A stretch of DNA of 64,000 nt from Lachnospiraceae bacterium (GTDB lineage: Bacteria > Bacillota > Clostridia > Lachnospirales > Lachnospiraceae). Position 1 is the first letter of the stretch; each line of letters starts with the position of its first letter. The notes beneath the pieces were generated by a model. The model was not told the DNA's origin. It made no database searches and saw nothing but the letters and a program-made list of their open reading frames with translations. Location of the stretch: NCBI GenBank assembly GCA_902363445.1, contig CABJAB010000005.1:124001-188000 (forward strand), read 5' to 3'. A program made the position numbers and the translations under genes. Shown piece by piece: positions 12,527 through 62,723 of the stretch.

Positions 12527-12549
12527 TAAAATAAAATGCGGTATAGTGG

Positions 12550-12592
12550 CACAGCCGCCGGGATGGGAGATTCCGGCGGCTGTGTTTTTTTA
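12550..12592 (+). terminator. Rho-independent terminator
   Basis: A 12-bp perfect stem (CACAGCCGCCGG with CCGGCGGCTGTG), an 11-base loop and a run of seven T's follow the zinc-ribbon gene closely. Confidence 0.92.
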
Positions 12593-12616
12593 ACAGCTGA
12601 ATTTGTTTTTAGTAGT

Positions 12617-12769
12617 AGGTCATTCGGAATGGTGCGGCAGACAGAATACCGGCAGAAAGAGTCCGGGCCAGCGAACCGAAATCGTGACGGTCCGGAACTT
12701 CTGCCGGTATTGAACTAGAACTTAATCGAAACTGACTGATTAAATTTCAAAAAGTGTTTTGTATTATAC
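12617..12769 (+). repeat. Family A repeat, internally deleted copy (A1)
   Basis: This copy keeps the left shoulder GGTGCGGCAGACAG, the left closing arm AATACCGGCAGAA, the segment AGCGAACCGAAATCGTGACG, the right closing arm TTCTGCCGGTATT and the right tail ending near TTTTGTATTAT. About 190 bases of the hairpin core found in copies at 42.4, 56.2 and 62.2 kb are missing, and the left terminal repeat is gone. The closing arms form a perfect 13-bp stem. It sits between a terminator and the 3' end of a chromate transporter gene, whose TAA stop lies inside the right tail. Confidence 0.85.
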
Positions 12770-13339
12770 TCCCCCAAAGTGGAATACGATTCCGATCACC
12801 GCCGAGGCGGCCAGGAATACGATCGGATGCCATTTGAACTTCCTTGTGCAGAGAAGAAGGACGGCGGCCAAAAGAAGTCCTTTCCAATTGAAGAGGTCCG
12901 TGAGCGCGCCGGAGGCTTTCCAGGCGGCCGGCGAAAGAAGCGTCAGGTTTACGACGCCGATGCCGGCGGCGGCTATGAGGCCCACCGATGCGGCGCGAAG
13001 CCCGTAAAAAGCGGCGTCCACCGTCTGATTTCCTTTAAATCGTTCCAGGAAGCCATAAACGAGAAAGATGATGATCACGGACGGCAGGGCCAGAGAAAAG
13101 GTTGCCAAAAGAGCTCCGGGGATGCCGGCGGCGTGGTATCCCACATAAGTGGACATGTTGACGCCTATGGGGCCGGGAGTGGATTCTGAAATGGCGATCA
13201 TGTCGGCCAGCTGGGGTTTTGTATACCAGCCGGTGGCCTCGGAAATCTCATTCAGAAAAGGAAGCGTGGCCAGGCCGCCGCCGACGGCGAAGAGCCCGGT
13301 CTGAAAAAAACGCCAGAAAAGTTCAAATAACACACTCAT
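12764..13339 (-). CDS. Chromate transporter, short-chain CHR subunit, 191 aa
   Basis: One half of a bipartite CHR-family transporter. The N-terminal signature FFQTGLFAVGGGLATLPFL and the SESTPGPIGVNMSTYVGY motif (with the PGP and N-x-ST-x-G pattern) define the CHR domain; five or six TM segments follow. Long ChrA proteins carry two such domains in one chain; here the domains are separate genes. The ATG overlaps the stop of the partner gene in ATGA. The stop codon lies in the terminal bases of a family A repeat, so the last residues could have been fixed by repeat insertion. Despite the name, anaerobe homologues may carry other oxyanions. Confidence 0.92.
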   Translation of the reverse strand: MSVLFELFWRFFQTGLFAVGGGLATLPFLNEISEATGWYTKPQLADMIAISESTPGPIGVNMSTYVGYHAAGIPGALLATFSLALPSVIIIFLVYGFLERFKGNQTVDAAFYGLRAASVGLIAAAGIGVVNLTLLSPAAWKASGALTDLFNWKGLLLAAVLLLCTRKFKWHPIVFLAASAVIGIVFHFGGV

Positions 13340-30793: not shown

Positions 30794-31690
30794 ATGGAAA
30801 TGGATTCACAGATCATGCATAAGGCGGAGGTCCTTATAGAAGCGCTGCCCTATATCCAGCGCTTTAACCGGAAGATCATCGTGGTGAAATACGGCGGAAG
30901 CGCCATGGTGGACGGGCAGCTGAAGAAAAATGTCATCAAAGACGTCGTCCTTTTAAAGCTGGTGGGCTTCAAGCCGATCATCGTCCACGGAGGCGGAAAG
31001 GAGATCAGCAGCTGGGTGAAAAAGGTGGGAATGGAGCCGCAGTTCGTAAACGGCTTCCGTGTTACCGATGAACCAACCATGGAGATTGCGGAGATGGTCC
31101 TGAACCGGGTGAATAAAAACCTGGTGCAGATGGTCCAGGAATTGGGCGTCAAGGCCGTGGGGATAAGCGGCAAGGACGGCGGACTGCTGAATGTGGAAAA
31201 GAAGCTGCCGGATGGCCAGGACATCGGATATGTGGGAAATGTAAAACACGTCAGTCCGAAGCTTTTGTATGACCTTTTGGAGAAGGACTTCCTCCCGATC
31301 GTCTGTCCCATCGGCTATGACGACAGCTTCCGGACCTATAATATCAATGCGGATGACGCGGCCTGTGCTATAGCGAAGGCGGTCAATGCGGAGAAGCTGG
31401 CCTTCCTCACAGACGTGGAGGGGGTCTACCGGGATTTTGAGGATAAGAGTACCTTGATTTCGGAGCTCACCCTGAATGAGGCGGAGCGGTTCGTAGCGCA
31501 GGGAATGGCGGGAGGCGGCATGATACCGAAGCTTCAAAGCTGTGTGGACGCCTTGAAGCAGGGGGTCTCCAGAGTACATATCCTGGACGGCCGGATTCCC
31601 CACTGCCTGCTTTTGGAAATCTTTACGAATAAAGGAATCGGCACGGCGATACTGAATAGTGAGGAGGAGAGGTATTTTTATGAAGGCTGA
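30794..31690 (+). CDS. argB: Acetylglutamate kinase, 298 aa
   Basis: Phosphorylates N-acetylglutamate, the second step of arginine synthesis. [10 protein letters not shown] near the N-terminus binds ATP phosphates; [11 protein letters not shown] and [15 protein letters not shown] are substrate and nucleotide contacts. An N-terminal helix ([20 protein letters not shown]) is present; in arginine-inhibited enzymes such a helix builds hexamers, so feedback inhibition by arginine is likely. Its last 11 bases overlap argD. Confidence 0.97.
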
Positions 31691-32864
31691 AGAATACATG
31701 GCGCGCGGGGAGAGCGTACTTCTCCATACCTATAATAGGACTCCCATTGTGTTTGACCGCGGCGAGGGCGTCTGTCTCTATGATACCGAGGGAAAACGGT
31801 ATCTGGATTTTGCCGCAGGCATCGCGGTGTTCGGACTCGGCTACCACAATCCGAAATTTGATGCCGCGGTGAAGGCGCAAGTGGATAAGCTGATCCATAC
31901 CTCCAATCTTTATTACAATGTCCCGGCCATTGAAGCGGCGGAAAAGCTGGTGAAGGCGACAGGGATGTCCCGGGTCTTCTTTACCAACAGCGGTACGGAG
32001 GCTATAGAAGGCGCCATAAAGACCGCCAGAAAATACGCGGTGCAGAAGGACGGCCGGACGGACCACGAGATCATCGCGATGAACCATTCCTTCCACGGCA
32101 GGAGCATGGGAGCGCTGTCTGTCACAGGAAATCCCCATTATCAGCAGGATTTCCGTCCGTTGATCGGCGGGGTCAGATTTGCGGAATACAATGACCTGGA
32201 CAGTGTGCTGGCGCAGGTGACGGACCGCACCTGCGCCGTCATTCTGGAGCCGATCCAGGGAGAAGGAGGGATATACCCGGCGGACGCGGAATTCCTCCGG
32301 GCTCTTCGGAAGCTCTGTGATGAAAGGGATATCCTGCTCATTTTTGATGAGATTCAATGTGGGATGGGCAGGAGCGGAAAGATGTTCGCCTGTCAGCACG
32401 CGGGTGTCCTGCCTGATGTGATGACAGTAGCGAAAGCCCTGGGGAACGGACTTCCCATCGGAGCGTTTCTGACTACGGAAAAAGCCGCTTCCCTGGTTCC
32501 GGGAGATCATGGCAGCACCTATGGGGGAAATCCCCTGGTCTGTGCGGGCGCGCGGGCCGTGCTGGATATTTTTGAGAGTGAAGATATCCTGGAGCATGTC
32601 TGTGAAATGGGCGTTTATCTATGGGATAAGCTGGAGAAGCTGAAGGAGAAGTATCCGATCATCAAGGAGCATCGGGGAAAAGGACTGATCCAGGGGCTCG
32701 AGTTCCGGGAATCTCCTGCGGAGATAGCGAGAGCGGCCATAAAACGGGGCGTGATCCTGATAACTGCCGAAAATAATGTCATCCGGTTTGTGCCGCCTCT
32801 GATCATTGAGAAAGAACATGTGGATGAGATGGCAGAGGTACTGGAGGAATGTATAATAGAATGA
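31680..32864 (+). CDS. argD: Acetylornithine aminotransferase, 394 aa
   Basis: PLP-dependent class III aminotransferase making N-acetylornithine. The pyridoxal aspartate is in [14 protein letters not shown], and the Schiff-base lysine in [18 protein letters not shown]. The ATG overlaps argB by 11 bases, behind GAGGAGGAGAGG. The stop codon TGA is formed by the first bases of a truncated family A repeat (a-TGA-TAC), so the last codons abut foreign sequence. Confidence 0.97.
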
Positions 32865-32925
32865 TACAAAATACTTTTTGGAATCATTTCTAGTGAGCTC
32901 CGATCAAGCTTCTGTCGGTGTATAA
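32861..32925 (-). repeat. Family A repeat, strongly deleted copy (A5)
   Basis: On the minus strand this reads as a left closing arm (ACACCGACAGAAG), then directly the right tail CTTGATCGGAGCTCACTAG and the terminal ATGATTCCAAAAAGTATTTT ending GTATCAT. The whole hairpin core and right closing arm are missing. It starts within the argD stop codon. The tail matches the 62.2-kb copy closely, so the assignment is firm even though little remains. Confidence 0.8.
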
Positions 32926-33052
32926 TTGGAACCCTCTGAATTTACTTTTGATTGTCATGATTTTAAACGATTATTCCCTTTTGCGTTCATAAAGCTTTCT
33001 GTTTTGGATAAACTAACAAAAATGTGAGTTGATTCAGAATGGAGGGCTTTTT

Positions 33053-41920: not shown

Positions 41921-41943
41921 ATTTATAGATAAGAAGCAAACAA

Positions 41944-41975
41944 ACAAGACCGGGAATGTATCTTCCCGGTCTTGT
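41944..41975 (+). terminator. Terminator of the kinase-holA operon
   Basis: ACAAGACCGGGAA and TTCCCGGTCTTGT form a 13-bp perfect stem with a 6-base loop. The following T tract is poor (TGATT), so termination may be partial. Repeat B begins right after it. Confidence 0.75.
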
Positions 41976-41979
41976 TGAT

Positions 41980-42313
41980 TATACCTTTGAATATTTTTTA
42001 AAACAAATTTGTCTTATGAATCAGATGAGACAGGAGGAAATCCGCTTCCATCCAGGCGGCTCGCTGGCAGCCGTAACCAGAATTTTTACGGTCTCCAGTC
42101 GGTCCTTTCCAACTGACATGGATAAACCTTAATTTTTCCATGTCAGATTCCAACAAAAATCCGCATGATATGCGATTTTTGCCTCCCTGCGTCCGAGAAA
42201 ATTCTGCTAACGCCTTTGCGGCGCTCGCCTTACGACGGAATCGGATTGTTCCTCCCTCTCCTCTTGCTACGCTGAAATAAGCGTTCATTTGTTGTAAAAA
42301 CTATTGAGGCGGC
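41980..42313 (+). repeat. Family B repeat, copy B1
   Basis: Matches 55919-56240 along nearly its whole length. It begins TATACCTTTGAAT and includes CAGATGAGACAGGAGGAAAT, GGCGGCTCGCTGGCAGCC, CCAGTCGGTCCTTTCCAA and GCTAACGCCTTTGCGGCG. Hairpins: CCGTAA/TTACGG, CTGACATGGA/TCCATGTCAG (42113-42146), and a 12-bp stem with a bulged C at 42154-42181. It has no open reading frame of credible coding character. It lies between the holA terminator and repeat A2. Confidence 0.88.
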
Positions 42314-42351
42314 CCACTTCAGCCCGCTGCCATAAGGCGCGCGGGCTGTGT

Positions 42352-42711
42352 GGATATCCAATTCTTTTCTGGAATCTAAGAAATGAAATTTGACCAGTAT
42401 AGCGCGGCAGGCAGGGCGCCGGCAGAAAGATTCCGGGCCGGCCTAAAGGTGAGCGCCGCAGGGCAGCGGCCGGTGTTCCCCTGGCGGAGGGAGACAGAAA
42501 CGGAAATACCGATTCCGTTTCTGAGCGAACAGGAGATGGGAAATCATCAAGATTTCCCGTCGACATGTGAGCGGTACTGCCAAAGCGGGGACAAAGCGGC
42601 CTTTGCATCGCCAGCGAACCGAAATCGTGACGGTCCGGAACTTCTGCCAGCGCTGAGCTTAAACTTTATTGGAGCTAATTTAAAATGATTCCAAAAAGTG
42701 TTTTATATCAT
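42352..42711 (+). repeat. Family A repeat, full-length copy (A2), 360 bases
   Basis: Bounded by imperfect inverted ends: left GGATATCCAATTCTTTTCTG and right, read inward on the other strand, ATGATATAAAACACTTTTTG. The core is closed by CCGGCAGAA with TTCTGCCAG plus flanking GCGC/GCGC pairs. Inside are GCCGC/GCGGC, CAGAAACGGAA/TTCCGTTTCTG (42495-42523), GGGAAATC/GATTTCCC (42538-42558) and ACCG/CGGT hairpins. Directly after the right end comes ACCCAAGGGCGTCCC, the inverted counterpart of the outer end of the 62.6-kb copy. It lies downstream of both holA and nhaC. Confidence 0.9.
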
Positions 42712-42752
42712 ACCCAAGGGCGTCCCTTTACTCGCGCCAGTTAAATTAAATA

Positions 42753-44207
42753 TTATTTCTTCTGAGCGGCCAGCTTCGCTTTTTTGCTGAACCACATGCC
42801 TTTTCCTCTCACGGGAGAACCGTCTTTTTTAAAGATGGCAAATCCTGTCAGCCCATAGATGATCGCCATAACGGGGCAGAGGAGCGGCAGGAATGAATAC
42901 GGCAGAGAGGACAGCGTAGGCACGCCCAGTACGCCGGATACATAAATCGCGGCCATGGACCAGGGCACGAGGAAGGAGAAAATGGTTCCGCCGTCCTCCA
43001 GGGTCCTGGAAAGTACGTAGGGAGCCACATCCGCCTTATCGTAGGAGTCCTTGAAGATTTCACCGGGCAGCAGGATCGCTACATACTGGCTGGCAGTGAG
43101 CACTACGGTCAGAAGGCAGGTGAACAGAGTGGTGATGACCAGCGGACCGGGCTTGCGCACCAGCGCTTCCAGCTTGCTCAGGATAGCATTCAATACCCCC
43201 ATTCTCTGCAGAAGCTCTCCGAAGGAAAGACAGAGCAGAGCGAGGGAGACCGTGGTCATCATGCTGGAGATACCGCCCCGGTTGAACAGCTTGGCAACAA
43301 CTTCATTCGCAAATTCGAATTTGAAGCCGGTGGCCATGGAATTGAACACAGTCGCAATGTCAAACTGAGGCTGGGCGATGAAGGCCACGACGATGCCCGC
43401 GATGGTTCCAGCGAGCAGAGCCAGGAAGGAAGGTACCTTCCGAACAGCGAGTACGATGGTCAGGATCGGGATCAGCAGCAGGAAAGGAGATACGTTGAAG
43501 GTTGAAGTGATACCTTCTGAAATTGCCGTTACATTGCCCAGATCCACGTTGGAAGCGCTGTACTGGAATCCGAGGACGAAGTATAGAATCGCTGAAATAA
43601 TTGTGGCAGGGACCGTGGTGAACAGCATGGATTTAATATGCAGGAAGATATCCGTGCCGGAAACAGCGGGGGCCAGATTCGTGGTATCGGAGAACGGAGA
43701 CATCTTGTCTCCGAAAATGGCGCCGGAGATGACCATGCCGGCAGTGAGGCCGGGGTTGATGCCGATGCCGTAACCGATGCCCATGAATGCGACACCCAGG
43801 GTACCTGCGGCTGTATAGGAGCTTCCAGTGAAGAAGGAAACGATACAGCAGATGATGAAGCCGACCAGCAGGAAATAGGACGGAGACAGGATCTTCAGTC
43901 CGTAATAGATGATGGAAGGCACTACGCCGGATACGATCCAGGAACCGACTACCATACCTACGCTCATCAGGATCAAGATGACCAATATGGCTTTCTTACA
44001 TCCGTCCAGGATGATTTCCTGGACTTCATTCATAGAAAAGCCGATGCACATGGCGATGATGGCCATGGCCACCAAAACAAGTGCAAATACGGTTACGGTG
44101 GTCAGCTTGAGAACTGCCAGCCCGACTGCCATGATCGCCACCATCACGATCAGGGTAAAGATGGCCATCGGAAATCCCATTCGTTTCGATTCTTTTTCTT
44201 TACTCAT
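42753..44207 (-). CDS. NhaC-family Na+/H+ antiporter, 484 aa
   Basis: Secondary transporter of the NhaC family with about 11-13 TM helices. The conserved GSSYTAAGTLGVAFMGIG and GDKMSPFSDTTNLAP segments form the cation pathway. Some NhaC-type proteins exchange organic substrates (for example malate/lactate in Bacillus) instead of protons. The ATG overlaps the hyuB stop in ATGA, behind AGGAGG, so it belongs to the hydantoinase operon and could import that pathway's substrate. The C-terminus is Lys-rich (SKKAKLAAQKK). Confidence 0.92.
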   Translation of the reverse strand: MSKEKESKRMGFPMAIFTLIVMVAIMAVGLAVLKLTTVTVFALVLVAMAIIAMCIGFSMNEVQEIILDGCKKAILVILILMSVGMVVGSWIVSGVVPSIIYYGLKILSPSYFLLVGFIICCIVSFFTGSSYTAAGTLGVAFMGIGYGIGINPGLTAGMVISGAIFGDKMSPFSDTTNLAPAVSGTDIFLHIKSMLFTTVPATIISAILYFVLGFQYSASNVDLGNVTAISEGITSTFNVSPFLLLIPILTIVLAVRKVPSFLALLAGTIAGIVVAFIAQPQFDIATVFNSMATGFKFEFANEVVAKLFNRGGISSMMTTVSLALLCLSFGELLQRMGVLNAILSKLEALVRKPGPLVITTLFTCLLTVVLTASQYVAILLPGEIFKDSYDKADVAPYVLSRTLEDGGTIFSFLVPWSMAAIYVSGVLGVPTLSSLPYSFLPLLCPVMAIIYGLTGFAIFKKDGSPVRGKGMWFSKKAKLAAQKK

Positions 44208-45874
44208 TTTTCATCCTCCTTGTTTGCAGCCGGGTAACAGGTGCTCATGGTCTCCAGGCTGATTTTTCCCTCTTCGTAATCTTTTCTTACCTTATTAATA
44301 TCACGCTTTGCAGGGTCCCCATATCCGCCGCCTCCGGCCGAAACCAAAGTTACGGTGTCTCCAGATTCCAGGGGGACGTTGCGTACCTTGTTCTGCGTGT
44401 TGATTTTCCTGCCTTCATGGCAGACATCCAGATAGGAAGTGGAACCGCCCATGCCGCCCTGCAGACCCCAGGGCTTCGTCCGGCTTCTTTCTGTGGAAGC
44501 GGCCGCCAGCACGGTATTTTCACTGTCGTCCAGGATACAGATGCCTCTGCGGATGCCCATGCCGCCCCGGTACATGCCGGGACCGCCGCTGTCCTCTTCC
44601 AGCGCATATTCTTTGACTAAAAGAGGGTATTCCATTTCCAGGGATTCGATGGGAAGGTTGGAGCTGTTGGTCATATGTACCTGTACGGCGTCCAGGCCGT
44701 CTTTATTGTAACGGGCGCCGTTTCCGCCGCCGATGGTCTCCACATAGACATAAGGCTTGCCGGAACGGGCGTCTTGTCCGGCGATGCTGAAAAAGGTCAC
44801 GGCTCCGCAGCCCGCGGCGATGACATTTTCCGGATCGATCTTTGCGAAAGCGCCGAAGATAACGTCTGCCAGACGCTGGGTCGTAGTCTCACGGTCAAAC
44901 GTGGGCGCCGGTTCGCTGGCACACACGATGGTGCCGGGTTCAGCCTTTACGTCGATACTGTCAAAGAAGCCGGAGTTGGCGGGTATGGTCTTATCCAGCA
45001 GGCATTTCACTGAATAGAAGACTGTGGCCAGCAGGGCGCTCTTTACGCAGTTATACGGGCCGGTCACCTGAGGATGGCTTCCGGAAAAGTCAAACAGGAG
45101 ATGGTCTCCGGAGACGACCAGCTTCACCCGGATCTGCAGGTTTTCATTGCCGTTTCCGTCATCATCCAGGATGTCCTCAAATTCGTATTCTCCGTCAGGC
45201 AGGTTTTGGATGGCCGTTCTGGCTTTCTTTTCTCCATATTTGAGCCATTCCCGGCAGAATTCAAAGTACGTTTCCAGGCCGATCTTTTCACAGAGCTCTA
45301 CGATCTTGTCCGCGCCGAATTGGTTGGTGATGAGCTGCGCCTGGATATCTCCTCGGCGCTCTTCCTTCAGCTGGAAGTTGAGAAGGATCAGGTCATAGAT
45401 ATCTTTATTGAGCTTCCCCTTTTCATAAAGCTTTACTACAGGAATGCGGAGGCCCTCGTCGAAGATAGTCGGCCCCCTTCTGGAGCGGTCCGCGTGATGG
45501 CCGTTATTTACTACAAAGGCGATCAGCTTTCCTTCATAAAAAACGGGCTTGACCAGGGCAATGTCCGGAAGATGGGAACCGCCGCCGGTATAAGGATCGT
45601 TGGCGATGTAGACATCTCCATCGTATATTTCCGATTTATCCCATCTTTTCAGGAGCTCCTCCACCGCGCCGAAGAGGGAGCTGAAATGGATGGGAATATG
45701 CTGGGCGAGGGAGAGAACCTTGCCTTCCGCATCGAAGATGGCCACGGACAGGTCCTTTCTCTCTTTGATATTTGTGCTGTATGCGGTCTTAGTCAGGATG
45801 ACTCCCATCTGCTCCGCGATGGAGAGAAGGCCGTTGCTTATGACCTCCAGGGTAATGGAATTAATGTGACTCAT
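44204..45874 (-). CDS. Hydantoinase B / oxoprolinase-family subunit, 556 aa
   Basis: Beta subunit of an ATP-dependent amidohydrolase of the N-methylhydantoinase/5-oxoprolinase/acetone carboxylase family. Typical blocks are NSITLEVISNGLLSIAEQMG at the N-terminus, the metal-site region ANDPYTGGGSHLPDIALVKP, FVVNNGHHADRSRRGP and the C-terminal GGGGYGDPAKRD. Length fits HyuB. It overlaps hyuA by 14 bases and nhaC by 4, so all three are translated together. Substrate (hydantoin, 5-oxoproline or other cyclic amide) cannot be told. Confidence 0.94.
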   Translation of the reverse strand: MSHINSITLEVISNGLLSIAEQMGVILTKTAYSTNIKERKDLSVAIFDAEGKVLSLAQHIPIHFSSLFGAVEELLKRWDKSEIYDGDVYIANDPYTGGGSHLPDIALVKPVFYEGKLIAFVVNNGHHADRSRRGPTIFDEGLRIPVVKLYEKGKLNKDIYDLILLNFQLKEERRGDIQAQLITNQFGADKIVELCEKIGLETYFEFCREWLKYGEKKARTAIQNLPDGEYEFEDILDDDGNGNENLQIRVKLVVSGDHLLFDFSGSHPQVTGPYNCVKSALLATVFYSVKCLLDKTIPANSGFFDSIDVKAEPGTIVCASEPAPTFDRETTTQRLADVIFGAFAKIDPENVIAAGCGAVTFFSIAGQDARSGKPYVYVETIGGGNGARYNKDGLDAVQVHMTNSSNLPIESLEMEYPLLVKEYALEEDSGGPGMYRGGMGIRRGICILDDSENTVLAAASTERSRTKPWGLQGGMGGSTSYLDVCHEGRKINTQNKVRNVPLESGDTVTLVSAGGGGYGDPAKRDINKVRKDYEEGKISLETMSTCYPAANKEDEK

Positions 45875-47921
45875 GGAAACGTCCTCCTGTTCTCGTAATG
45901 ATCATGTTGAAATACTCGTCCACCACGGCTTTCTGGTTTTTGAGGATAATGGTGGTGGAATCCATCTGCTCCACGATCGCAGGACCGGGAATCACATTGC
46001 CGCAGTGAAGCAGGTCGCGGTCATAGAGGATGTATTTTTCGCGGCTGCCGTCCTCCATGAGCACCATACGGCTGCCCATGACAGCGGCAGAGGCGTCCTC
46101 TCCTACGAAGTCCTCCCGCTCAATCTGAGGCTTGCCGATATGGCCGATGGCGGACAGACCAAAATTGACGATCTGGATCTCATCGGCGGAAGTATAGGAA
46201 TACAGCCGCATATAAGTTTCGGTGAACTGTCTGGTCAGGTCCTCCATGGAGGTGATGCCGTCATCGACGGATACGACGATCTCATAGTTCTGCCCTTTGT
46301 AGCGCATGTCCAGATAGTATTCCAGCTGGCGGTTTTCGTCCAGGATGTTTTCCTTGTCAAACCAAATCACAGCCTCTTTTTTCAGCCGGCTGTACATATC
46401 CGTGATACAGGAGAACGGCGTATGGTTTAAATCCATGACGCTGGTCTGCACAAAGTCGCGCCGCATATCCTCCGTCAGAAGGCCGTAGGCGGCCAGGAGG
46501 CCGGGAGCCTTTGGAATGATCGCGGTGGACATATTGAGCTCTTCTATGAGCTCGGCCGCATGAAGCGGACCGGCGCCTCCGAAAGCTACAAGCGAAAAGT
46601 CAGTGGGATTGTAGCCTTTTTCCACAGTGACGTTTTTGATCTCCTTTACAATATTGGAATTGCCGACGGTGATGATGCCGCGGGCCGTTTCTTCCACATT
46701 CATATCAATCTTCTCAGAGAGGTTCTCCACTGCTTTGAAGGAGAGCTTGGAGTCAATGGGAAGCTGGCCGTTTAAAAGCTCTTTGTTATTCAGATGTCCG
46801 AGGATCACTCGGGCGTCTGTTATAGTGGCTTCCTTTCCGCCGCGGGCATAGCAGGCGGGACCGGGCTCAGCTCCGGCGCTCTGAGGGCCGACCTTCAGGA
46901 TGCCGCCGCTGTCCACCCAGGCAATGCTGCCGCCGCCGGCTCCGATGGTGGATATATCGATGGAGGGAATCCTTACGGGATACCCGCTGATGTTTTTATC
47001 CTTGGAGCTCTCAATATTGCCGTTTACGATCATGCTGATATCGGTGCTGGTTCCGCCCACATCAAGGGTGATGACGTTTTTATAATCAATCAGATTCGTC
47101 AGATACTGTACGCCGATGACACCCGCGGCCGGGCCGGAGAGACCGGTCTTTATGGGATAAGCAGCAGCCTCCCGGATGGACATGAGTCCGCCGTTGGAAT
47201 GGTTGATATATACCTTTTTGATTCCAATCTGCTCCAGAGTATGCCTCAGGCTGTCCAGGTATTTTTTTACCTCGGGGCCCACAAAGGAATTGAGGACTGT
47301 ACCGCAGAGCCGTTCAAACTCACGGAACTGGTTGGAAATCTCACTGGAGGTGGAAATGTAGATCCCGGGCAGATGCTCTTCAATGAGGGCTTTTACCCTT
47401 GCCTCGTTCTCAGGATTTAAGTATGCGTTTAAGAATAAGACGGCGACAGCCTCGGCGCCGCTCTTCTTGAGCTCTTCTATCAACGCCAGGATTTCTTCAT
47501 CCTGGAGGGCGTCCAGGATCTCACCCTTATAATTCATACGTTCCGTCAGCTCAAATCTCAGATTCCTGGGAACCAGGACGGGAGCCTTGTCCATTTGGAG
47601 ATCATAAAGGTCCGGGCGTTTCTGCCGTCCAATCTCCAGCAGGTCACGGAAACCCTTTGTAGTCACCAGGGCCGTGCGTGCCCCCCGGCTTTCCAGGATG
47701 GCGTTGGTCGCCACGGTAGTGCCGTGGATGAAGCGGTCTACATTTTCATAATTCAGACCGTATTTTTCCACGATCTTACGGACGCCTCCCACAACTGCCT
47801 GGGACTGGTCCTTTAAAGAGGACGGCAGTTTATAGACCATCAGCTCGCCGGTTGTTTCATCAATTGCGCATATGTCGGTGTTGGTGCCGCCGACGTCGAC
47901 GCCGATTCTGATTTTGTTCAC
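45861..47921 (-). CDS. Hydantoinase A / oxoprolinase-family subunit, 686 aa
   Basis: ATP-binding alpha subunit of the same enzyme, an actin-fold kinase-like chain. RIGVDVGGTNTDICAID at the N-terminus is the phosphate-1 motif, LDVGGTSTDISMI the second, and FGGAGPLHAAELIEEL the adenosine motif. The start is GTG behind GAGGGGAGA; an ATG 29 codons upstream precedes a non-conserved stretch and has no ribosome binding site. It is the first gene of the operon hyuA-hyuB-nhaC, with a long dyad in its upstream region. Confidence 0.93.
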   Translation of the reverse strand: MNKIRIGVDVGGTNTDICAIDETTGELMVYKLPSSLKDQSQAVVGGVRKIVEKYGLNYENVDRFIHGTTVATNAILESRGARTALVTTKGFRDLLEIGRQKRPDLYDLQMDKAPVLVPRNLRFELTERMNYKGEILDALQDEEILALIEELKKSGAEAVAVLFLNAYLNPENEARVKALIEEHLPGIYISTSSEISNQFREFERLCGTVLNSFVGPEVKKYLDSLRHTLEQIGIKKVYINHSNGGLMSIREAAAYPIKTGLSGPAAGVIGVQYLTNLIDYKNVITLDVGGTSTDISMIVNGNIESSKDKNISGYPVRIPSIDISTIGAGGGSIAWVDSGGILKVGPQSAGAEPGPACYARGGKEATITDARVILGHLNNKELLNGQLPIDSKLSFKAVENLSEKIDMNVEETARGIITVGNSNIVKEIKNVTVEKGYNPTDFSLVAFGGAGPLHAAELIEELNMSTAIIPKAPGLLAAYGLLTEDMRRDFVQTSVMDLNHTPFSCITDMYSRLKKEAVIWFDKENILDENRQLEYYLDMRYKGQNYEIVVSVDDGITSMEDLTRQFTETYMRLYSYTSADEIQIVNFGLSAIGHIGKPQIEREDFVGEDASAAVMGSRMVLMEDGSREKYILYDRDLLHCGNVIPGPAIVEQMDSTTIILKNQKAVVDEYFNMIITRTGGRFHESH

Positions 47922-48399
47922 GTTAAATCTTCTCCCCTCATTCTGTCTGATATGGCCCCCTTCAGGACGAGTTTCCCGTCGGAGAGCATTTGCTGTTTTA
48001 GCATCCAAGTTTGTATAGGAAATCTCGGAGATCTTTCCTATATAATAAAAGAGCAGTCATATGCATGGTATATGCACATGGCTGCTTTACATCAATGTAA
48101 GCTGTAATCCAAAACGTTCCGGCTGTGGTACGCCCGGAAAAGCTGGTATTAATGTCCTGTAGTGTCAAATTCACTTTTTCTGTCGTCCAATTAACTCCAT
48201 GCCCCCAGGTATATCATAGTGCTCTTTTGAAGCTTGGCGGGCTTCAAAAACAGTCTTGCACCTATTCGATGCAAGCCCAAGCGCAAAACGCTTTCGGCAG
48301 ATTTCCCTTTCCCACAGGCTGTGGTACTGATGATTTCCGCGCCCCTATACATACCTAACAATTATAGCGAATCAAAACATCAAAGTCAACCGAATCCCT
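47922..48399. other. Intergenic region between hyuA and the aldo/keto reductase gene, unassigned
   Basis: About 480 bases without a credible gene. The hyuA-proximal part holds the dyad at 48014-48042 and a possible minus-strand promoter (TTGATG, 17 bases, TATACC). A longer imperfect inverted repeat follows (AGCAG...CTGCT, 48051-48086). The part from about 48110 to 48390 is richer in A+T than its neighbours and contains two tight hairpins, TTTTGAAGC/GCTTCAAAA and CTTGCA/TGCAAG. A 78-codon frame on the plus strand has no protein-like character. It may be a decayed mobile element or the 3' region of the reductase transcript. Confidence 0.5.
48014..48042. promoter_or_regulatory. Dyad upstream of hyuA, candidate operator
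   Basis: TATAGGAAA and TTTCCTATA form a perfect 9-bp inverted repeat around an 11-base centre that itself contains TCTC/GAGA. It lies about 95 bases before the hyuA start. No regulator gene is adjacent. Confidence 0.5.
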
Positions 48400-55848: not shown

Positions 55849-55895
55849 GGCGTATCGGGTCTTCCCATTGTGGGGGCAGATACGCCGCTTTCTTT
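55849..55895 (+). terminator. Probable terminator of the gpr-hemW block
   Basis: GGCGTATC and GATACGCC form a stem with an inner CCCA/TGGG stem, followed by GCTTTCTTT. It lies about 160 bases after hemW and just before repeat B2. Confidence 0.55.
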
Positions 55896-55918: not shown

Positions 55919-56240
55919 TATACCTTTTAAACAAACTTCTTTCCATTGCCAGATGAGACAGGAGGAAATCCGATTTCATCCAGGCGGCTCGCTGGCAGCC
56001 ATAACCACGATCTTTGCGGCCTCCAGTCGGTCCTTTCCAACTGACATGGATAAAAATCAATATTTTTCCATGTCAGATTCCAACAAAAACCCGTATGATA
56101 TACGGTTTTTGCCTCCCTGCGGCCGGGAAGATCCTGCTAACGGCTTTGCGGCGTTCGTCTTACGATGGAATCAGATTCCTCCTCCTGCTCCTCCTCCCGC
56201 ACCAAAGTATCTTCCGTTTGCTTCAAAAGCTATTGGGACG
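55919..56240 (+). repeat. Family B repeat, copy B2
   Basis: Second copy of the element at 41980-42313. Conserved segments include CAGATGAGACAGGAGGAAAT, CCAGGCGGCTCGCTGGCAGC and CCAGTCGGTCCTTTCCAACT. The hairpin at 56041-56076 is longer than in B1 because the loop bases also pair (AAAAAT/ATTTTT). The hairpin at 56084-56111 differs from B1 at two base pairs, both compensated. It is followed directly by repeat A3. Confidence 0.88.
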
Positions 56241-56557
56241 GGCTGCGGCAGAAAAGACGCCGGCAGAAAGATTCCGGGCCGGCCTAAAGGTGAGCGCCGC
56301 AGAGCAGAGGCTGGTGTTCACCAGGCGGAGGGAGGCAGAAACGGAAATACCGCTTCCGTTTCTGAGCGAACCGGAAGTGGGAAATCATCCGGATTTCCCG
56401 CCGACATGTGAGCGGTACTCCTGGAGTGGGGATAAAGCGGCCCCTGCATCGCCAGCGAACCGAAATCGTGACGGCCCGGAACTTCTGCCGGTATTTTACC
56501 GGAACTTGGTCGGAGCTGAATAAAAAAATGATTCCAAAAAGTATTTTGTATTATCAT
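56241..56557 (+). repeat. Family A repeat, copy lacking the left end (A3)
   Basis: The core is complete: GCCGGCAGAAAGATTCCGG to CCGGAACTTCTGCCGGTATT, with GCCGC/GAGGC, CAGAAACGGAA/TTCCGTTTCTG and GGGAAATC/GATTTCCC hairpins. The right tail ends ATGATTCCAAAAAGTATTTT then GTATTATCAT. The left terminal repeat is replaced by the end of repeat B2. It lies about 90 bases upstream of the hrcA promoter. Confidence 0.88.
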
Positions 56558-62135: not shown

Positions 62136-62209
62136 CATTTCATAGTTGTCAGGTCCATCAAAGATTGAGGGGAAGGGGAGTTTGAGGTGGGCTTGCCCGC
62201 TTTGATCAT

Positions 62210-62569
62210 ATGATACAAAACACTTTTTGGAATCATTTTTAGTAAGCTTCGATCAAGCCACAGTTAGACACCGGCAGAAGTTCCGGGCCGTCACGATTTC
62301 GGTTCGCTGGCGATGCAGGGACCGCTTTATCCCCGCTCCAGGAGTACCGTTCACATGTCGGCAGGAAATCTTGATGATTTCCCGTCTCCGGTTCGCTCAG
62401 AAACGGAATCGGTATTTCCGTTTCTGCCTCCCTCCGCCCGGGGAACACCGGCCGCTGCCCTGCGGCGCTCACCTTTAGGCCGGTCCGGAATTTTTCTGCC
62501 GGTATCCTGTCTGCCGCACCGTTTCGAATGATTTCCGTTCCCTTGATTCCAAAAAAGTATTGGATATCC
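62210..62569 (-). repeat. Family A repeat, full-length copy (A4), 360 bases
   Basis: Same length as the copy at 42352-42711, opposite orientation. On the minus strand it begins GGATATCCAATACTTTTTTG, has the closing arms GATACCGGCAGAA and TTCTGCCGGTGTC, the hairpins CAGAAACGGAA/TTCCGTTTCTG and GGGAAATC/GATTTCC, and ends ATGATTCCAAAAAGTGTTTT then GTATCAT. TTTTTGGAATCA is shared exactly between the inward-facing ends. It lies between the small membrane protein and the second NhaC gene, upstream of the latter. Confidence 0.9.
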
Positions 62570-62642
62570 TCTTGTCTCATCTGATTCATAAGACAAATTT
62601 ATTTTAAAAGAATTCAAAGATATACCCAAGGGCATCCCTTAA
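62570..62642 (-). repeat. Left stub of repeat B with outer inverted end
   Basis: On the minus strand this reads AAGGGATGCCCTTGGGTATA, then CTTTGAATTC, then AAATTTGTCTTATGAATCAG and ATGAGACAAGAG, matching the first 55 bases of B1, and then passes directly into the left end of A4. The body of B is absent. AAGGGATGCCCTTGGGTAT is the inverted counterpart of the bases just beyond A2, which makes this the likely outer terminus of a composite element. Confidence 0.8.
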
Positions 62643-62723
62643 TTCATGCCCTCCGGGCAGACGCACTTCGTGCGGTAAGGTATAATAGGAAATACTATAA
62701 AGTGAACGAGCGAGGAGTATGAA
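62643..62723 (+). promoter_or_regulatory. Short upstream region of the second NhaC gene
   Basis: Contains two small hairpins (GCCC/GGGC and CGCAC/GTGCG) and a TATAAT at 62681-62686 without a good -35. GAGGAG precedes the ATG by seven bases. The promoter must lie here or inside the adjoining repeat. Confidence 0.4.

Follow-up and report, generated by a model that had tools for sequence, protein, structure and literature searches.

Five copies of a structured repeat lie beside ordinary genes in the window, by which we mean the whole 64-kb stretch of gut-bacterial DNA analyzed here, with a G+C content of 51.5%. The copy at 42 kb is flanked by genes for DNA polymerase III delta and a Na+/H+ antiporter, the copy at 56 kb by genes for a HemW-type radical SAM protein and HrcA, and the copy at 62 kb by genes for DnaJ and an antiporter; a chromate transporter gene lies beside the 12-kb copy and a class III aminotransferase gene beside the 32-kb copy. 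The initial annotation described all of these copies as intergenic, and this is nearly so. By coordinates and by eye, the repeat end at 32 kb (32861-32864) overlaps the TGA stop codon of the plus-strand ORF 31659-32864, and the repeat end at 12 kb (12764-12767) overlaps the TAA stop codon of the minus-strand ORF 12764-13339. Pfam gave no match for the ORFs running through the repeat, in agreement with the earlier statement that it contains no transposase, and no transposase was found among the window ORFs that were scanned with Pfam (part of a total of 152, most of the others overlapping scanned ones).

When the window was compared with itself by BLAST, its strongest repeats were the 5 places reported earlier, together with a further stretch that we call module B. 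The best pairwise E value among the 5 copies, 2.2e-110, joins 56244-56554 to the 62-kb copy at 88% identity. The copies at 42352-42712 and 62209-62569 (minus strand), which had been described as a pair of identical length, align over 361 nt at 84% identity (E 7.6e-110), and the 56-kb copy is without its left end, as had been stated. Internal deletions had been proposed for the two remaining copies. This is correct for the 12-kb copy, which was matched in 2 segments (12620-12672 and 12667-12769) and has lost its interior while keeping its stem, but the 32-kb piece, matched at 32861-32911, is recognizable solely as a right end. A 25-base pattern taken from the right end occurs 5 times in the window with at most 3 mismatches and is absent from 100 shuffles. 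Positions 32911-32934, which follow immediately on the minus-strand right end of the 32-kb piece, hold plus-strand letters that by eye resemble the 3' part of the repeat and are perhaps a fold-back remnant.

The 360-base stretch, hereafter module A, had been taken for the repeat unit, but it is one half of a larger one. At 42 kb, the whole unit measures ~733 bp (about 41980-42712) and consists of module B, a linker, and module A, with module sizes of about 330-360 nt, and module B precedes module A at 56 kb as well (Table 1). The B stretches 42022-42263 and 55950-56193 are 88% identical by BLAST. Since module A is half of an inverted module pair, its inverted ends close one module and not the whole unit.

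Table 1. Modules, linker, and remnants of the repeat in the 64-kb window
Feature	Position	Strand	Remarks
Module A remnant, 12 kb	12615-12769	+	basal stem retained, branched interior lost
Right end of module A alone, 32 kb	32861-32915	-	51-55 nt
Module B, 42-kb copy	41980-42308	-	diverged inverted homologue of A
Linker with G+C-rich hairpin, 42 kb	42309-42352	none	junction from B to A
Module A, 42-kb copy (the repeat first reported)	42353-42712	+	own inverted ends, branched core
Module B, 56-kb copy	55919-56240	-	outer limit set by eye
Module A, 56-kb copy	56243-56555	+	first 49 profile positions absent; linker hairpin also absent
Module A, 62-kb copy	62209-62569	-	full length
Outer 64 nt of module B, 62 kb	62562-62624	-	equivalent of 41980-42043, fused directly to the 62-kb A; rest of B and linker gone

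Module B is an old, diverged copy of module A in inverted orientation. A profile built from the 3 larger A copies detects the two B copies, both on the minus strand, at 24.6 and 19.0 bits; it reported nothing in the opposite orientation, and the highest score among 500 dinucleotide shuffles was 2.5 bits. The identity between A and B is 51.0-54.4%. The least circular test was a covariance model whose structure was predicted from the 3 A copies alone, although the modelled stretch was cut using the A-B alignment; with this model, the B copies scored 51.7 bits (E 2e-10) and 43.8 bits (E 1.5e-8) and ranked immediately below the A copies. A sequence-only model of the same A alignment without the structure gave the B copies 20.2 and 23.9 bits, but the 2 models are weighted differently (0.59 versus 0.38 bits per position for structure and sequence only, respectively), and as a consequence the A copies score higher with the former too (206-213 versus 170-173 bits). 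Three models run on the window found nothing further below an E value of 0.1; they cover the central part of the module, which is mostly absent from the 12-kb and 32-kb remnants.

The fold is conserved between these modules of about half identity. The inverted ends and hairpin core that had been described for module A are present, and the A copies at 42 and 62 kb fold better than their shuffles with z scores of -6.9 and -6.7. The same is true of module B with the linker (z -8.6), the 733-nt unit (z -7.2), the 56-kb unit (z -6.3), the 12-kb remnant (z -4.0), and the opposite strand of the 42-kb A copy (z -3.9), and a 145-nt stretch at 32 kb folds no better than shuffles (z -0.1). With the five A and B sequences aligned, 88.7% of the cells pair, a value reached by none of 500 shuffles, and sliding the pairing partners lowers pairing to 35-53%. 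Two-sided changes are found in 22 of 77 pairs of this alignment, against a shuffle mean of 13.4 and with none of 500 shuffles matching it, where the structure used for the count was derived from that very alignment and the 5 sequences are effectively one deep split. The consensus energy is -66.2 kcal/mol, that of the opposite strand is -58.0, and 100 column shuffles, in which dinucleotides were not preserved, give -34.3 (sd 4.1). The structure models from A alone and from the joint alignment disagree in part of the multibranch region.

Comparison of copies within each module gave a further measure of constraint. Between the B copies at 42 and 56 kb, compensatory pairs number 4 against an expectation of 0.66-0.78 (P 0.002-0.005), and broken pairs number 4-6 against an expectation of 12.5-12.9 (P 0.0002-0.002), with both strands alike. 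The A copies alone carry a weak signal: on the sense strand, compensatory changes give P 0.01 in 1 of 6 directed comparisons and at least 0.09 in the others, and breaks are few at P < 0.05 in 3 of 6. On their opposite strand, none of the 6 comparisons is significant for compensatory changes and 2 of 6 are significant for few breaks.

The repeat had not been recognized as a known family, and a scan of the window with Rfam 15 at the gathering score likewise gave no match in it. The one family found in the window was a lysine riboswitch at 48209-48355 (minus strand, 77.4 bits), upstream of ORFs 45861-48008 and beyond on the minus strand. Relaxed Rfam scans of the repeat returned sub-threshold matches only, which differ from copy to copy. 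The strongest of these, an L20-leader at 41936-42053 on the minus strand (26.2 bits versus a gathering score of 58.7), was rejected; it covers a terminator and the outer end of module B and does not recur at 56 or 62 kb. The terminator-like hairpin in question (41943-41976) lies just ahead of the outer end of the 42-kb copy, and by eye there are others near the 12-kb and 56-kb copies, at 12547-12586 and 55849-55895, likewise just ahead of the outer or left end. An intron-type or IS605-type RNA was set aside, no such Rfam family having been returned. A phage or plasmid origin was also rejected: viral contigs gave no confirmed match to the repeat, matches in plasmids and phages cover at most 11% of the query at E values of at least 0.3, and a comparison of plasmids with 25 kb of the window gave none. 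The one match among genome contigs, in a Pirellulales genome, amounts to 22 bases, and the repeat structure model R1 found nothing in that Pirellulales genome or anywhere in its class (59 genomes, counting that one), a result that carries no information on relatives of the window. The repeat is not described in the titles and abstract openings found in the literature.

It had been considered that the sequence might be tandem duplication debris confined to this region, but copies occur in other named genomes. A search of database proteins with a single sequence gave 44 ORF clusters from 48 candidates, and a profile search gave 87 from 7104; these ORF-cluster figures are not copy counts, as fragments are among them and DNA lacking an open frame escapes such a search. 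All 72 of the 87 clusters that are named belong to Qiania dongpingensis or to Lacrimispora sp. NSJ-141 / Lientehia hominis, the latter 2 names being taken to denote a single organism, since P0044 and P0097 lie on the same 111,690-bp contig. The excerpt of PMC8140505 presents Qiania as a Lachnospiraceae isolate from human faeces, and the organism behind the window is probably closely related. By hand count, Qiania dongpingensis accounts for 53 of the 87 clusters, all on one contig of 3,084,832 bp, and Lacrimispora sp. NSJ-141 / Lientehia hominis for 19, whose 18 distinct locus tags range between LQE92_01070 and LQE92_13860. The other 15 are mostly on contigs of about 0.5-2.5 kb. One of the 87, P0061, was retained although it contains a stretch that resembles a sequencing-adapter chimera. 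A search with module B gave 10 ORF clusters from 11 candidates, one of them named (NSJ-141), and in 8 of the 87 clusters, by motif, A is preceded in frame by letters of B or the linker (linker only in P0005).

Adjoining the left end of the 62-kb copy on its outer side is a candidate outer module, C, a 69-nt stretch (62622-62690) that contains small hairpins. The 19 nt with which C begins are found again, 18 of them identical, at 42710-42728, where they directly border the right end of the 42-kb copy and run outward in the same direction; none of 2000 shuffles gave such a match, and there was no match to the start of C at the 7 other repeat ends tested. C may be either a genuine terminal repeat or a separate small repeat. 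In the database ORF P0057, B is followed by C-like letters, as judged by eye.

We favor, with moderate confidence, the explanation that the copies form a family of DNA elements, non-autonomous and probably mobile, in which the spreading unit is the ~733-bp inverted pair of structured modules (B on the minus strand and A on the plus strand, with the linker hairpin) and the mechanism is REPIN-like. The family looks like a large relative of the bacterial miniature mobile elements. The occurrence of 5 copies at unrelated places within 64 kb argues for this explanation, as do the inverted homology of A and B, the two-sided and compensatory changes, the 8 clusters with B or linker letters before A, and the dispersal in Qiania dongpingensis and NSJ-141; the presence of both modules in just 2 of the 5 window copies, the weak covariation among A copies alone, the failure to find a target-site duplication by eye, and the lack of a transposase among the scanned ORFs argue against it. 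According to the excerpt of PMC3116915, a REPIN is a REP doublet forming a hairpin, a RAYT transposase acting in trans is thought to recognize its inverted modules, and modules that occur singly are regarded as defunct remnants. The inverted pairs, the remnant single modules and ends, and the multi-copy spread in few organisms give the present family its resemblance to this scheme, both kinds of element consisting of 2 inverted homologous palindromic modules, non-autonomous and in many copies. By analogy with what has been proposed for REPIN/RAYT, a protein encoded elsewhere would recognize the folded modules as the 2 ends of the unit, and selection on that recognition would keep the fold in replicating copies. 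Inserted copies would then decay through deletions across hairpins into single modules, stems, and ends, and the lost hairpin interiors would fit deletion across palindromes.

The family differs from REPINs, as far as the excerpts describe them, in its length and in having branched modules that are only 51-54% identical to each other, where REP modules are short. Typical REPs also carry a GT[AG]G tetranucleotide 5' of the palindrome (PMC6006769, in excerpt). We do not file the family as REPIN because the module size does not fit and the tetranucleotide gives a mixed picture by eye, with GTGG directly before A at 42 kb but not at 62 kb. The CIR repeats of Caulobacter and Brucella, in the excerpt of PMC2229807, are likewise built of 2 linker-joined arms, each an inverted repeat with a long stem-loop; the present repeat is much larger, has branched and mutually homologous arms, and belongs to another lineage.

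It is possible, but we think it unlikely, that the repeat is instead a multi-copy structured non-coding RNA, with the modules transcribed outward from the linker and the RNA functional for the host or the element. The structure kept between the diverged modules would suit an RNA, as would the fact that, with RNA parameters, the sense strand (plus for A, minus for B) folds more stably than its opposite by 11.6-24.5 kcal/mol in all 5 modules, a difference that for the A copies is above the level set by composition (1, 0, and 3 of 60 shuffles). For module B, however, the strand difference is at the level of composition (37 of 60 shuffles for both copies), the sense strand is still the more stable, by 5.6-15.6 kcal/mol, when DNA parameters are used, and the compensatory excess in B is equally strong on the opposite strand. 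Many copies are moreover broken, and a consensus scan found no promoter-like site within the 42-kb unit, the single site at 42727-42756 lying outside it. The large RNAs ROOL, GOLLD, and OLE are similar in size and elaborate secondary structure (in part from the abstract of PMC12286853), but the present family differs from them in its lack of an Rfam match, its many dispersed broken copies, and its inverted pairing.

Quite improbable, in our view, is an ordinary MITE of a classical DDE transposon, in which the short termini alone matter and the structured interior is passive. Module A does have clear, imperfect terminal inverted repeats, and by eye TA is found at all 3 left and at 3 of the 5 right outer ends, as in several bacterial MITEs (PMC2229807, in excerpt). 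In the excerpts of PMC10969869 and PMC2229807, bacterial MITEs also share with the repeat a mostly intergenic location, no transposase, stable stem-loops, truncated copies, and annotated open frames. Against this, the internal structure has been retained despite divergence to about half identity, the outer ends of the 733-bp unit are weakly alike by eye, and comparison of the flanks by eye gave no convincing target-site duplication. The same 2 papers give a typical MITE as less than 500 bp, whereas the unit here is about 733 bp, with module A alone at 360, and has 2 paralogous modules with conserved inner structure.

We also regard as improbable a mobile element of paired divergent RNA genes, encoding 2 paralogous RNAs of about 330-360 nt, in which the fold would be selected in both arms and the RNAs would serve, as recognition RNA or as an RNA intermediate, in transposition of the element itself.

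We reject a small protein gene family: although a frame is open through the 3 larger A copies and 87 database ORF clusters match, substitutions are even over codon positions 1/2/3 (10/9/7, 7/10/5, and 6/9/6 in 3 comparisons of A; 10/11/10 in B), single-change codons in A are mostly non-synonymous (12:5, 11:3, and 11:4 non-synonymous to synonymous), the ORFs have no Pfam match, and by motif 30 of the 87 clusters use a frame shifted inside one hairpin, compared with 48 in one frame and 9 unclassed. A further frame shift is found in 4 ORF clusters by motif and in a fifth, P0082, by eye. The even codon positions and the 30 shifted frames indicate that the repeat is non-coding, and in Qiania dongpingensis and Lacrimispora sp. 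NSJ-141, many of the "hypothetical proteins" among P0004-P0100 are very probably translations of it.

Stretches of a non-coding repeat have in this way very probably been entered in databases as "hypothetical proteins". With this family, the known structured repeats of bacteria gain a large two-module form, whose paralogous modules have diverged enough for covariation to reveal the fold that was kept. If the explanation by paired RNA genes were true, it would establish a new type of mobile element that is non-coding. Given complete genomes and RNA data, the family offers a clean test of selection on DNA hairpins versus selection on RNA.
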